From the NCBI RefSeq assembly GCF_029960785.1, contig NZ_JASBQE010000001.1, positions 186,001-250,000 of the forward strand: a stretch of DNA of 64,000 nt. Direction: 5' to 3'. The notes under the pieces were generated by a model. It did no database searches. It saw only the letters and a program-made list of their open reading frames with translations, and had not been told where the DNA came from. Positions 15,797 through 20,337 of the stretch are shown here, in pieces. Both the position numbers and the translations under genes were made by a program. Numbering within the stretch: the stretch's first letter is position 1; each line of letters opens with the position of its first letter. Origin of the DNA: Polyangium sp. 15x6 (lineage in GTDB: Bacteria; Myxococcota_A; Polyangia; Polyangiales; Polyangiaceae).

Positions 15797-16000
15797 GTGA
15801 TGGTTACCTCCCTGGGCATCGCTGTTTGGCATGACCGGACGGCGGGCACAAGAGGGTAGCAGCCTTGACGCCCGCATATTGTTATCCGTGTACCGGGACC
15901 TTTCCCCGGCACGAGAACGGGAGCCTCCACTGCGGCTGCACGTGGCGCGGGGAGACCGTGGCCTGAACCTGGACGTCCCGGAAAAAACGCCCCCGCGCGC

Positions 16001-16030
16001 TTGACATCTACGAAGAACTTCGTACATCAT
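16001..16030 (+). promoter_or_regulatory. Promoter and palindromic operator of the BlaI-like repressor gene
   Basis: TTGACA at 16001-16006 is a perfect -35. A 16-base palindrome TACGAAG-AA-CTTCGTA fills 16009-16024, in the spacer before a weak -10 (TACATC at 16023 or CATCAT at 16025). BlaI/MecI repressors bind such dyads (their own consensus has TACA/TGTA ends), so autorepression is likely. The -10 is 7-10 bases from the ATG and no Shine-Dalgarno is visible, so the transcript may have a very short leader. Confidence 0.65.
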
Positions 16031-16037
16031 CCGGACC

Positions 16038-16424
16038 ATGGTGAACAGGTCGCTCCCCACGGACGCGGAGCTCGCGATCCTGCGCGTCCTCTGGCGCCGC
16101 GGCCCCTCGACGGTGCGTGAGGTCCACGAGGATCTGAAGCCCGTTCAGGGCACGGGATACACGACGGTGCTCAAGCTCATGCAGATCATGGCCCAGAAAG
16201 GGCTCGTCGAGCGCGACGAGGCGGGCAAGAGCCACGTGTATCGAGCGACGATCCCCGAGGAACAGGCTCAAAAAGGGCTCGTGCACGACCTCGTGGAAAA
16301 GGCGTTCGGCGGCTCGGCGTCGCGGCTCGTCATGCGCGCGCTCTCGGCCGAGCGAGCTTCCCGCGAGGAGCTGGCCGAGATTCGCGCGCTGCTCGACGAC
16401 ATCGAGAAGAAGAGGTCGAAATGA
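16038..16424 (+). CDS. BlaI/MecI/CopY family repressor
   Basis: The 128-residue product is a winged-helix repressor of the BlaI/MecI type: LPTDAELAILRVLWRRGPST, TVREVHEDL and GTGYTTVLKLMQIMAQKGLV, with a helical dimer domain. In the known bla and mec systems this repressor is cut after the partner M56 membrane protease senses beta-lactam. Here the next gene overlaps by four bases (ATGA) and encodes an M56 protein, so the pair is a two-gene sensor-repressor unit. The operator dyad directly upstream supports autoregulation. The inducing signal is probably not simply penicillin, because the partner lacks a penicillin-binding domain. Confidence 0.92.
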   Translation: MVNRSLPTDAELAILRVLWRRGPSTVREVHEDLKPVQGTGYTTVLKLMQIMAQKGLVERDEAGKSHVYRATIPEEQAQKGLVHDLVEKAFGGSASRLVMRALSAERASREELAEIRALLDDIEKKRSK

Positions 16425-18367
16425 GCCTCGCAAACCTCGCCACCTCGCCGTTCGTCGCGGCGCTCGGGCTCGCGCTGCTCCATTTCCTCTGGCAAGGCGC
16501 GGTGATCGCCCTCTTTCTCGCCGCGACCCTCGCGGGCCTGCCGCGCAGCCACGCCGCCGCGCGGTACACCGCCGCCTGCGCCGCGCTCGCCTTCATGGCG
16601 CTCGCGCCGCTGCTGACGTTCGCCTATTTCCACGCGTCCTTCGCAGCCGAATCGTTTGTCTCGCCAAGCGCCTGGTCCACGCTCGCCGCGCCCGCGGCGG
16701 GCAGCAATCCACCCCTGTGGCCCGCGATCGTCGTGATGGCGTGGGTCCTTGGCGCGCTCTTCATGTCGGCCCGCCTCGCCGTGGGGCTCGCGCGCCTTTC
16801 GTCCTTGATTCGCCATCACACGGTGCCCGTGTCCTCGGCGCTCGAGGTTCGCTTCGACAAACTCGCCCGGCGCGTCGGCGTCCGGAAGGGCGTGCGGCTC
16901 GTCGGCTCGGATCGCGTGGACGTGCCCATGGTCATCGGCTGGCTTCGGCCCGTCGTGCTCGTGCCGATCGCCGCGCTCACGGATCTTCCGCCGTCTTGCC
17001 TCACGGCCTTGCTCGCGCACGAGCTCTCGCACGTGCGCAGGTTCGACTTCCTGACGAACATCCTGCAATCGATCGTCGAGGCAGCGCTGTTCTATCACCC
17101 GGCCGTCCACTGGGTCTCGCGCGTCGCGCGGAGGGAGCGCGAGCACCTCTGCGACGATGACGCCGTGGCAGCCGTCGGAGACCCGGTTCGTTATGCCCGC
17201 GCTCTCGCCGCGCTGGAGGGGATGCGCGCACGTACGCCCGAGCTCGCGCTCGGATCGAATGGAGGTTCACTCGTCATGAGGATTCGACGTCTGATCGATG
17301 GCAAAACGCCCCACGCGCCCACGGGTCGCGCCCTCGCCGCGCCGGCGCTCGCGCTCGCGAGCACGCTCGGGCTCGCCCTCGCCACGCTCGCCGCTTGTGG
17401 CGGAGAGGCGCCTGCCGCCGTGGAGAAGCCCGGCCTCACCGAAACGAAGTTCGAGACGGCCGCGCTCGGCATTCCCTGGCTGCCGCCCGCGATCGCGCGC
17501 TGGGAATCGGCCATCGCCGCGTCTGCCCGCAAGGGCAACGTCGATCCCGAGGCCGTCGCGATCCTCACGCTCGTCGAATCGTGCGGCGATCCGAAGGCGA
17601 AGAGCCCGGCCGGCGCCCTCGGCCTGATGCAGCTCATGCCCGGCACCGCCGTCACGGTCGCCAAGGAGCTCGGCATCGCCGATCATACCGACGAACGCCT
17701 GCTCGATCCGGCCTACAACCTCGAGCTCGGCGCCTCGTATTTCGGCAAGCAGTTCGTCGAGTTTGGCAAGAAAGACCCATCGCGCGCGTTCGAGCTCTCG
17801 GCCGCGGCGTACAACGGCGGCGAGAACCGCGTGCGCGCGTGGCTCGACGGCAAGGCGGAGCTCTCCGAAGAAACCGAGAAATACCGCGCGCTCGCCACGG
17901 GGATGTGGAACGAGCGTCACGCGGCGCGCTCGACGACGTACGATACGTGGCGTGAGCGCGTGCGCGGAAAGGTGGCCTCGCGCTCCTCGCACCCGCTCCC
18001 CGGCGCGCGCGTGACCTTGCATTTCGGCGGTGCCACGCCCGGACAAACGGGCGCGCCGCACGAAGGCGTGGACCTCGCGGCTGCGGCCGGGACCACGGTG
18101 CTCGCGCCCCTCGATGGGAAGGTGGACCGCATCGAGAAGAACGCGAAAGGCGAGCCCGTGCTGGTCCTCGCGCACGGCCGCGGCATCGAGACGCGGTATC
18201 GCCATCTCGCGAACGTGAAAGCAGAGGTCGGCGCGGTCGTCACGCGCGGCGACGTCCTCGGCGAGGTCGGCGCGCCCGAGGGCGGTCCGCACGTCCACTT
18301 CGAGGTGCGCGACAATGGCGAGGCGATCGATCCGGCGCGTTATCTCGGCCAGAACGCCGCGCCCTGA
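16421..18367 (+). CDS. M56 membrane protease fused to lytic transglycosylase and M23 peptidase domains
   Basis: The 648-residue protein combines three enzymes. Residues 1-290 are a BlaR1/MecR1-type M56 metalloprotease: membrane helices near 12-38, 50-72, 100-122, and the zinc motif H200-E-L-S-H204 with a downstream EREHLCDDDAVA. A fourth helix (305-325) ends LATLAACGG. Residues about 355-500 are an SLT lytic transglycosylase with catalytic Glu386 in LVESCGD, then GALGLMQLMPGT and AAAYNGGENRV. Residues about 520-645 are an M23 (LytM/Gly-Gly endopeptidase) domain with His547, Asp551, His624 and His626. The last two should lie in the periplasm, where BlaR1 has its penicillin sensor. It is co-translated with the BlaI-like repressor. 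LATLAAC (Cys326) resembles a lipobox; an internal start at Met286 (17276) would give a separate lipoprotein and cannot be excluded. Confidence 0.88.
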   Translation: MSLANLATSPFVAALGLALLHFLWQGAVIALFLAATLAGLPRSHAAARYTAACAALAFMALAPLLTFAYFHASFAAESFVSPSAWSTLAAPAAGSNPPLWPAIVVMAWVLGALFMSARLAVGLARLSSLIRHHTVPVSSALEVRFDKLARRVGVRKGVRLVGSDRVDVPMVIGWLRPVVLVPIAALTDLPPSCLTALLAHELSHVRRFDFLTNILQSIVEAALFYHPAVHWVSRVARREREHLCDDDAVAAVGDPVRYARALAALEGMRARTPELALGSNGGSLVMRIRRLIDGKTPHAPTGRALAAPALALASTLGLALATLAACGGEAPAAVEKPGLTETKFETAALGIPWLPPAIARWESAIAASARKGNVDPEAVAILTLVESCGDPKAKSPAGALGLMQLMPGTAVTVAKELGIADHTDERLLDPAYNLELGASYFGKQFVEFGKKDPSRAFELSAAAYNGGENRVRAWLDGKAELSEETEKYRALATGMWNERHAARSTTYDTWRERVRGKVASRSSHPLPGARVTLHFGGATPGQTGAPHEGVDLAAAAGTTVLAPLDGKVDRIEKNAKGEPVLVLAHGRGIETRYRHLANVKAEVGAVVTRGDVLGEVGAPEGGPHVHFEVRDNGEAIDPARYLGQNAAP

Positions 18368-20337
18368 TCACGGGCCGCCCTGTCGAGCACGCGTCCGAGC
18401 AGCCCTGGCGCCGCGATGGCGTCGGGGCAATGGGCGAGCGGGTAGGTTTTTCCGTCTTCGCGACACGTGAAGAAATCGGCCGACGTGGTGCCCAGCGTAT
18501 CGACGATCCCGTCGGCCATGACGAAGGCCGCGCCCGGCCGATCGAGCACACCGAAGCTCGCCACGGGCCGGATCGGATCCCCATCACGCGACGGATCCTC
18601 CACGTCGAGCCTGCAGACCGCGTCCCAGCACTCGAGCAGGAGCCGCCGCTTGGCCGACTCCCAGGGTTCGACGGGCGCATTGGGATCTCCGCCGAGCAGG
18701 CCGATGAGGCCCGCTTCTCCGAAGGACTTCAGCTTGCCCGTATCAAGGTCGAGCACGAGCACGTGATCCCGGTCGACCGCGATCTGCGCAGTCGTCTCGT
18801 CCTGCGCCAGGATGGCGGACACGGCCTTGCCGCCGGTGCGCACGACGCGACGGGTTTTTCCAGTCGAACCATCGACGATCACGACCTCGCCCCGCCGCGT
18901 CCCGACGAGGATCCGATCCCCCGAGGCGTCGAACCCCACCGCGCTCGCGGGCCCGTTCGTCCGCAGGGAATGGCGCGGCTTCAACGTGGTGCCCTGTCGC
19001 TCCCACACGATCGCCGCGCCGTCCTTGCCTACCGTGGCCACGGCGCCCTTTGCGTGGATCGCCAGCGAGGACAGGGGCGGGAGCGGACCGTTTTTCAGGA
19101 CGATCGGTTGTCCCGTCCGCACATTCCACATCCGCGCCGTGCCATCGTCCCACACCGCGCCGAGCAGCACGGCTCCGTCCGCGAGCGGGCCCGCGCCGAG
19201 CGCCCCGCCTCGCAGGTGGAGGCCGAGCGTGAGCCCGTCGGCCGTCAGGTCCCCCGGGCGTCGCAGAAAGACGTGCGTGTCGTGCGCAACGACGACACGG
19301 TCCCCCTCCGGCGACAGCGCTGCGACGGTCTCGGCCCAAGGGCGGCGGGACGGCGGCACGGTGAAGGTCCGCGCGTCCTGTGTCACGGTCGTCACGTCCT
19401 CCTTTTGCAAGACGTCGACGATATGCCCATCCGAGGCAATTCCGACAAACCTTGCGTCTGGACGAACCTGCCCGAGGCGCACCGGCGGCGCCCCGGACAC
19501 GGGGAGGCCCCAGATCTGCCCGCCTTCCACCTCGGAAATGAGGCGATCGCCCTGGAACCGCAGGCTTTTCGGTGCACCGGACAGGCTCGCGAGCTCGCGG
19601 ACGACGTGTCCGTCGGGTAAACCTCGCAATCGAATCCGACCGTCCTTCGTGCCGAGCGCCAGCGTGCTCCCGTCCTCCGAGAGCGCCATTGCGGTGAAGG
19701 AAGGATCGCTGAACGTGGCCAGCGGATCGCCCGAGGGGAGCCGTCGCAGAAAGACCTTTCCATCGCGGAAAACGCCGACGGCCACGGCCGTGTTGGCGAC
19801 CGAGAGCCGGAACCCGCCGAACCCGGAAGGTGGTTCGATATCGAACGCGTGGGACGCGCCCGTGCGCGGATCGAGGAACGCGAGTATCGCAGCGGGGCCA
19901 CCCAAACCGCCGACGCCCCGCCGGGCCACGATCGCGAGGGTCTCGCCCGATGGCGTGAAGGCCATTTCGTCGAGGCTGAAGTCGTGCAAACGGAGCGAGG
20001 CGATCTCGTCGCCCTCCGCGGCCGTATGCACGGTGACCTCGACATTGGTGAACCCGAAGCACCCGGCCGCCGCGGATTCATGGTCCGCGACGGCCACGAG
20101 CGCGCCCCCGGCCGACACCGCCACACCGCCGATATCATCGAAGTCGTGCGTCAACTGCACGCTACGGCGCGAGGGCCAGGCGTTCCCGGCAGACGACGCG
20201 CTCTCCTTCGGCGCAGCCTGAGCCGACACCACCGGTCGAGCCGCGGGCTCCGCGACCTTTTGCGCTTCCCGCCCCGCACACCCGACGGCGAGCAAGACGG
20301 CGGCGAGCGCTGGAAACAAAAGCGAACGGGGGCGCAT
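18340..20337 (-). CDS. WD40-like beta-propeller lipoprotein
   Basis: The 665-residue product begins MRPRSLLFPALAAVLLAVGC, a lipoprotein signal with Cys20. The rest is a string of beta-propeller blades (GGVAVSAGGALVAVADHES, EMAFTPSGETLAIVARRG, AMALSEDGSTLALGTKDGRI, AVGFDASGDRILVGTRRGE), mostly in the WD40-like form of a sequence reading successive values. Two propellers would fit the length. No catalytic residues are seen, so it is likely a scaffold or binding protein on the outer face of a membrane. Its 3' end overlaps the convergent M56-fusion gene by 28 bases. A methyltransferase-like lipoprotein gene lies 47 bases upstream on the same strand. Confidence 0.82.
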   Translation of the reverse strand: MRPRSLLFPALAAVLLAVGCAGREAQKVAEPAARPVVSAQAAPKESASSAGNAWPSRRSVQLTHDFDDIGGVAVSAGGALVAVADHESAAAGCFGFTNVEVTVHTAAEGDEIASLRLHDFSLDEMAFTPSGETLAIVARRGVGGLGGPAAILAFLDPRTGASHAFDIEPPSGFGGFRLSVANTAVAVGVFRDGKVFLRRLPSGDPLATFSDPSFTAMALSEDGSTLALGTKDGRIRLRGLPDGHVVRELASLSGAPKSLRFQGDRLISEVEGGQIWGLPVSGAPPVRLGQVRPDARFVGIASDGHIVDVLQKEDVTTVTQDARTFTVPPSRRPWAETVAALSPEGDRVVVAHDTHVFLRRPGDLTADGLTLGLHLRGGALGAGPLADGAVLLGAVWDDGTARMWNVRTGQPIVLKNGPLPPLSSLAIHAKGAVATVGKDGAAIVWERQGTTLKPRHSLRTNGPASAVGFDASGDRILVGTRRGEVVIVDGSTGKTRRVVRTGGKAVSAILAQDETTAQIAVDRDHVLVLDLDTGKLKSFGEAGLIGLLGGDPNAPVEPWESAKRRLLLECWDAVCRLDVEDPSRDGDPIRPVASFGVLDRPGAAFVMADGIVDTLGTTSADFFTCREDGKTYPLAHCPDAIAAPGLLGRVLDRAARDQGAAFWPR

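Follow-up and report, generated by a model that had tools for sequence, protein, structure and literature searches.

The BlaR1/BlaI pair is known as a penicillin alarm. In the cited descriptions of the Staphylococcus aureus and Bacillus licheniformis systems, BlaI or MecI stands beside BlaR1 or MecR1, a membrane protein of the M56 gluzincins that carries HEXXH and EXXXD motifs and whose last helix leads into an extracytoplasmic domain (PMC9834060, PMC3356374). The sensor of S. aureus BlaR1 is described as being released by the signal peptidase SpsB right after that helix (PMC9834060), and a wall fragment, a dipeptide, was reported to inactivate BlaI/MecI directly in B. licheniformis (PMC3305447). 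M56 is also listed as a second catalytic domain in proteins with M23, and such second domains jointly account for <1% of hits (PMC9662197). The abstract on the phage endolysin Ply2638A describes a single wall-hydrolase gene from which both a full-length protein and a shorter in-frame one are made (PMC12203907). Here, we describe a locus in Polyangium sp. 15x6, within a 64,000-nucleotide stretch of contig NZ_JASBQE010000001.1 (positions 186,001 to 250,000; hereafter, the window), that shares the arrangement of a BlaI repressor, an M56 membrane protease, and a last helix followed by an outer part. The layout is BlaR1/BlaI-like, yet the penicillin-binding sensor that defines BlaR1 is missing, and an SLT lytic transglycosylase and an M23 endopeptidase domain are found at its position. 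Comparative sequence analysis indicates a conserved new variant of BlaI/M56 signaling in which a lipoprotein wall hydrolase is probably nested. We lean slightly toward a two-in-one gene, in which the last helix of a BlaR1-type receptor would double as the signal peptide of the nested lipoprotein, and a single-target repressor operon would yield both a wall sensor and a free enzyme.

Domain architecture and distribution

An initial annotation, made from the letters of the window alone, had proposed that a BlaI-like repressor gene overlaps an M56-SLT-M23 gene through the sequence ATGA, and both the open reading frame (ORF) coordinates and Pfam bear this out (Table 1). The BlaI product belongs to the Penicillinase_R winged-helix repressors (PF03965, E 8.5e-29, 100.7 bits against a cut-off of 22.6). 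In the 648-aa protein encoded by the second gene, M56 (PF05569, E 8.9e-25), SLT (PF01464, E 2.9e-23), and M23 (PF01551, E 9.8e-24) each score well over their cut-offs, and Pfam found no transpeptidase or β-lactamase domain. The motifs named in the annotation (HELSH at residues 200–204, Glu386, and His547/Asp551/His624/His626) all lie at those residues. HELSH is accompanied by the second zinc motif of M56 gluzincins, E241-XXX-D245, and H200, E201, H204, E241, and D245 do not vary across the ten aligned members; nor do the SLT family motifs (E386-S387, GLMQ at 401–404, and AYN at 463–465). The zinc and catalytic motifs of M23 read H547EGVD551 and H624VH626, with HAGVD and HMH as their counterparts in a more distant homolog (L164).

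The predicted structure of the 648-aa protein (mean pLDDT 79, pTM 0.49; 18 alignment rows, only three of them covering M56) matched M23 enzymes, the Slt and MltE transglycosylases, and S. aureus BlaR1 in the Protein Data Bank (PDB), and the SLT domain could be aligned with Slt70, MltE, and MltC. The BlaR1 matches returned by Foldseek (8exq, 8exs, 8exp, and 8ext; E 1.7e-6 to 2.2e-5, probability 1.00) had low TM-scores, 0.25–0.29, and rmsd >17.

A frameshift separating the domains, or a decayed gene, is ruled out by an identical open frame across six genomes of the genus. The uninterrupted architecture is present in five other genus genomes and in one more distant family member (genome G526, locus L164), and protein identity in the three genus genomes directly compared is 92, 92, and 86%. 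Because the flanking genes are syntenic across the genus loci compared and are read in the opposite orientation, the operon consists of blaI and the M56-SLT-M23 gene only.

Among the 317 genomes searched from the class (Polyangia, Myxococcota), BlaI directly precedes an M56-SLT gene in at least 18; loci were read after the search, and the number is a minimum because it leaves out fragments at contig ends. The full combination of M56, SLT, and M23 in one chain beside BlaI, which the initial annotation had singled out as a search target, was found in seven of them: six genomes of the window's genus and G526, a Polyangia metagenome-assembled genome of the same family (record JAUILJ010000539.1). 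The form without M23 is the commoner one (11/18 genomes, including Plesiocystis pacifica SIR-1; G221, NZ_ABCS01000028.1). One of the 18 genomes (G468) is interrupted at the locus by an assembly gap. Among the matches listed for 377 genomes drawn from the phylum, with up to three candidates scored per genome, those covering both M56 and SLT fell only inside the class, and a wider scan of named genomes gave two loci with M56 coverage among the best 80.

For comparison with other M56 receptors, a survey of 90 M56 genes was used (85 from the class and five from elsewhere in the phylum), a nonrandom sample of the better-scoring matches obtained from 92 ORFs after removal of a duplicate (L234, of L018) and of the first piece of the gap-cut L170. 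BlaI lies directly upstream of M56 in 88 of the 90; the two exceptions, L216 and L240, run into contig ends. The class also contains receptors that join M56 to a penicillin-binding transpeptidase, four recognized by Pfam (L216, L217, L226, and L261) and 11 assigned by a profile built from those four tails. Separately, a second BlaI-M56 pair lies about 13 kb past the end of the window (G000:C111:263381-263995; L002, L152), in which no SLT or M23 was found, and five other genus genomes likewise have a second M56 gene. Five free-standing relatives of the fused SLT domain (L158–L161 and L167) have lipoprotein-like N termini, and no M56 gene was found in the 9–15 kb fetched around them; a sixth (L162) is cut by a contig start.

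The promoter palindrome and the visible regulon

The region from 15800 to 18700 contains a single promoter-like site, located directly before blaI; its −35 hexamer keeps this position in all four genus sequences compared. A palindrome, TACGAAG-AA-CTTCGTA, occupies the space between the two hexamers of the promoter. The palindromic bases are intact in all six genus genomes, and within the genus the promoter-palindrome block is retained where the sequence upstream of it diverges. As the blaI ATG lies 8 positions past the −10 hexamer, the operon transcript would be nearly leaderless.

Each genus genome has one palindrome site at ≤1 mismatch, against 0 to 2 sites per genome for a reversed-pattern control. 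Beyond the genus, the exact core TACGAA-N4-TTCGTA is present in 13 of the 17 BlaI promoters of M56-SLT operons that were compared and occurs with one or two changes in the remaining four (L148, L150, L163, and L166); several of these promoters carry two copies around the −35 box. When 23 genomes were searched, the exact motif was found in 14, once in each, and in 13 of these it marks the BlaI-M56-SLT operon's own promoter (with the reversed motif, 20 genomes had 0 sites and the other three had 3 to 5). The nine genomes lacking it are the four M56-SLT genomes with inexact copies and five that had been chosen for their SLT-free M56 genes. The one exact motif away from these promoters is L279:1501-1516 (G468:C219:4607-4622). 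A larger BlaI regulon was considered and set aside: at two mismatches the Polyangium genome has 27 sites where the reversed control has 19, and at one mismatch only the operon's own promoter is left within the genus.

Because the palindrome is nearly unique and is located at the operon promoter, the visible regulon is the operon itself. BlaI would bind this palindrome and seems to control a single target, its own operon; for a repressor that governs its operon alone, the wall enzyme would be the output.

The last helix and the predicted internal start

The 20 residues before the last transmembrane helix contain five K/R and one D/E, and the 19 residues after it contain two K/R and four D/E. 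From this charge balance, both SLT and M23 are expected on the outer side of the membrane, contrary to the cytoplasmic placement named in the initial annotation as a threat to its proposal. The structural model puts a helix at the same residues, 306–326, at low pLDDT (about 43–54). The helix ends in a lipobox, and a lipobox-like pattern at this position occurs in 41 of the 90 surveyed M56 genes, against four of 178 N-terminal hydrophobic segments of the same proteins. All seven M56-SLT-M23 proteins have it, as do 6/11 M56-SLT proteins. It was found in one of 18 M56 proteins taken from 14 genomes of other groups (50 genomes searched), where helices were located by their distance from HExxH, a rule slightly unlike that of the 90-gene survey.

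An in-frame ATG precedes this helix in the window gene and in 16 of the 18 M56-SLT genes overall, 17–28 residues upstream in 15 and 44 residues upstream in L177. The 17 junction ATGs (two in L177) sit in unusually open RNA and have a median Shine-Dalgarno (SD) energy of −9.3; for 149 other ATGs in frame within these genes, the median is −2.2. Since the surveyed genes are related and gene-level p-values overstate their independence, the comparison was also made with one gene per lineage (p 2e-6 and 6e-6). Among SLT-free M56 genes, a junction ATG is present in 11/72, and one with both an SD sequence and open RNA in 7/72.

The protein motif at the junction itself favors GGNGG, and the sites were therefore compared with synonymous-codon shuffles in which the protein is kept constant, using a joint test of SD strength and open RNA. 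The window site gave a joint p of 0.005. For ten hand-chosen sequences, in tests that were unplanned and grew stepwise on the same data, the combined value (Fisher) was 6e-10, or 6e-8 without two sites found afterwards (L151 and L164); 76 control ATGs of the same genes had a median p of 0.65, with 4% at or below 0.1. Because L148 and L150 share one genus label, the test was repeated with one sequence per genus (nine), giving 3e-8 or 2e-9, and 3e-6 also without the two later sites. RNA openness carries most of the joint signal (3e-8 over ten). AT-ending codons also cluster here, which is no more than a hint (permutation p 0.01–0.09 per genus sequence, values that are correlated). When the receptors are sorted by type, significant starts (p ≤0.05) are found in 14/18 SLT, 0/15 transpeptidase, 9/51 other, and 0/6 short genes.

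Sequence comparison thus supports selection at the internal start, and the wall enzyme is probably also made as a separate lipoprotein from the ATG at 17276. The product would begin with a basic n-region and continue through a hydrophobic core to a lipobox cysteine (MRIRRLIDG...ALALASTLGLALATLAAC326), a lipoprotein-like pattern that would lead to lipid modification. The initial annotation had treated an internal start at this position as something that might divide the protein; the start has real support, but as an additional one within a continuous frame, with no break between the domains. Two further kinds of gene show similar features. L209:536-4252 (minus strand) fuses M56 to a PF00144 β-lactamase-family domain, has BlaI upstream and an internal ATG with a joint p of 0.007, and possibly contains another nested enzyme. 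Four short-tailed M56 genes (L154, L155, L156, and L157) have an internal GTG behind GGAGGA (p 0.003–0.01), three of them with a lipobox-like LAAC, and may encode small nested lipoproteins.

Table 1. Coordinates of the operon features in the window
Feature	Position	Strand	Basis
−35 hexamer, TTGACA	16001..16006	+	Promoter scan; genus comparison
Probable BlaI operator (palindrome between −35 and −10)	16009..16024	+	Genus conservation; BlaI binding predicted
−10 hexamer, CATCAT; spacer 18	16025..16030	+	Promoter scan
BlaI-type repressor gene, 128 aa	16038..16424	+	PF03965
M56-SLT-M23 gene, 648 aa, ATGA overlap with blaI	16421..18367	+	Pfam domains; frame intact in five other genus genomes and L164
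M56 domain, residues 98–268; HELSH at 17018–17032; E241XXXD245	16712..17224	+	Pfam, motifs; fold-search match to BlaR1 8exq
GGAGG, SD-like, 10 bases before the internal ATG	17261..17265	+	Sequence, SD energy, shuffle test
Predicted nested in-frame ORF from Met286, 363 aa; lipoprotein-like signal MRIRR...LATLAAC, then SLT and M23	17276..18367	+	Predicted start
Last transmembrane helix/signal-peptide core, residues 306–326; lipobox LAAC, Cys326 at 17396–17398	17336..17398	+	Lipobox pattern, hydropathy; model helix
SLT lytic transglycosylase domain, residues 365–483; catalytic Glu386 at 17576–17578	17513..17869	+	Pfam, alignment, motifs
M23 endopeptidase domain, residues 546–638; H547, D551, H624, H626	18056..18334	+	Pfam, alignment, motifs

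Weighing the readings and comparison with known systems

The chances are about even that the locus encodes a BlaR1-like receptor that regulates itself and, nested in the same frame, a lipoprotein wall hydrolase. Support comes from the domain order, the motifs, the near-unique palindrome, the lipobox, and selection at the internal start; we infer BlaI binding, repression, and cleavage, actual use of the internal start, lipid modification, enzyme activity, and the signal. In the proposed mechanism, BlaI would occupy one operator between the −35 and −10 hexamers of its own promoter, forming a self-repressing switch. The second gene would yield a BlaR1-like receptor with transmembrane helices, a cytoplasmic M56 protease, and SLT and M23 outside, and the start at 17276 would give an additional lipoprotein consisting of the two wall enzymes alone, for which the receptor's last helix would serve as signal peptide. 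The outer SLT/M23 part would meet a signal, most likely the state or a product of peptidoglycan; M56 would then cut BlaI, and opening of the promoter would produce more receptor and more wall enzyme. The initial annotation had suggested that the wall enzymes replace the penicillin sensor. Their conserved position beside BlaI agrees with this and argues against an isolated oddity, but with a separate lipoprotein probable, they look like output as much as sensor. More speculatively, the reported inactivation of BlaI/MecI by a wall-derived dipeptide (PMC3305447) makes it conceivable that wall cutting by the products of this gene could feed back on BlaI independently of M56.

Several observations weigh against this reading. 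The curated NCBIfam models for BlaI were not reached by the repressor (CopY_TcrY, 54 bits against 122 and the best of them; BlaI_of_BCL, 44 against 180; BlaI_of_MRSA, 29 against 250), nor were those for BlaR1/MecR1 by the receptor (blaR1_generic, 63.9 bits against 400; sensor_MecR1, 28.9 against 1200). In four M56-SLT genomes every copy of the palindrome is inexact, and the exact copy in G468 lies away from a BlaI-M56-SLT promoter. A strict lipobox is absent from 5/18 M56-SLT proteins, and 2/18 genes have no junction ATG (L166 and L170, the latter with the assembly gap). Individually, just seven of the ten shuffled sequences reach a joint p ≤0.05; SD strength alone surpasses the shuffles only modestly (p 0.008 over ten), and on this measure neither L149 nor L172 exceeds them (p about 0.8–0.9). 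A synonymous-conservation scan of four genus sequences found no outlier at the site, with the longest run lying elsewhere (p 0.76). The nine significant starts among the 51 other M56 genes mean that such a start also occurs beyond the SLT genes, and L261, which has a penicillin sensor, approaches significance (p 0.066). Finally, the SLT fusions fail to group together in the M56 tree (support 0.34), and this low support leaves a single origin of the fusion undecided.

It is rather unlikely, though a serious alternative, that the gene encodes a single-chain receptor only, with the wall enzymes acting purely as sensor, the last helix as an ordinary anchor, and the internal ATG unused. The frame is open throughout, BlaR1 is among the PDB matches of the model, and 14 of 16 internal ATGs fall at a conserved M56 motif (often GG-x-L-M-x-R-I) that by itself favors GGNGG. 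The shuffles, however, leave the protein unchanged, and selection for a start in open RNA behind an SD sequence is still seen against them; none of the 15 penicillin-sensor receptors has a significant one; and L151 and L164, which lack the motif ATG, have another ATG nearby in very open RNA. Less probable is a scheme in which only the full-length protein is translated and LspA, the lipoprotein signal peptidase, cleaves it ahead of Cys326, so that SLT-M23 is released from the M56 part on a lipid anchor, much as SpsB sheds the BlaR1 sensor. The excess of lipoboxes at the last helix over control segments would be explained in this way, as would their presence in 11/15 penicillin-sensor receptors that have no significant internal start, and the release of the BlaR1 sensor by SpsB is a documented parallel (PMC9834060). 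Such processing would leave the codon choice at the internal ATG unexplained, and no description of LspA acting on an internal helix was found. A loose fusion, in which signaling from M56 to BlaI has been lost and the gene encodes a membrane-tethered wall hydrolase that happens to adjoin a repressor, is quite improbable given the invariance of HEL-x-H and E-XXX-D in the aligned members and the retention of BlaI in nearly all surveyed genes, even though the BlaI site tentatively aligned with the S. aureus Asn-Phe cut reads RLVMRALS, a further point against the preferred receptor model. A possible mimicry of the BlaI cut site by an M56 loop that shares LVMR was seen but is unconvincing.

The two-in-one receptor and hydrolase would tie a signaling core known from penicillin alarms to wall-cutting enzymes, whose gene is the sole visible target of the repressor. 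It is a natural system in which a response of BlaI/M56 switches to the cell wall as such can be looked for directly, a possibility put forward for B. licheniformis in the cited report (PMC3305447), and the nested start and lipobox yield clear, testable predictions. Among the matches listed in a search of titles and the beginnings of abstracts of open-license papers, no description was found of an M56-SLT architecture, a lipobox at the last M56 helix, or an internal start there. The known M23-M56 fusions share M56 and M23 in one chain, and the section of PMC9662197 that describes them makes no mention of SLT with M56, of BlaI coupling, or of an internal start. Ply2638A, with its two products from one gene, is a phage enzyme, and its abstract mentions no receptor, membrane helix, or repressor (PMC12203907). 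Lipoprotein lytic transglycosylases resemble the nested product in the SLT domain and, through the free-standing relatives within the class, in their lipoprotein-like character; unlike them, the lipoprotein here would be encoded inside a receptor gene and would share the receptor's helix. BlaR1 and MecR1 are similar in layout, and the locus in the window differs from them in having SLT and M23 in place of the penicillin-binding domain, a palindrome that within the genus occurs at the operon's own promoter only, and a last helix with a lipobox and a predicted internal start.

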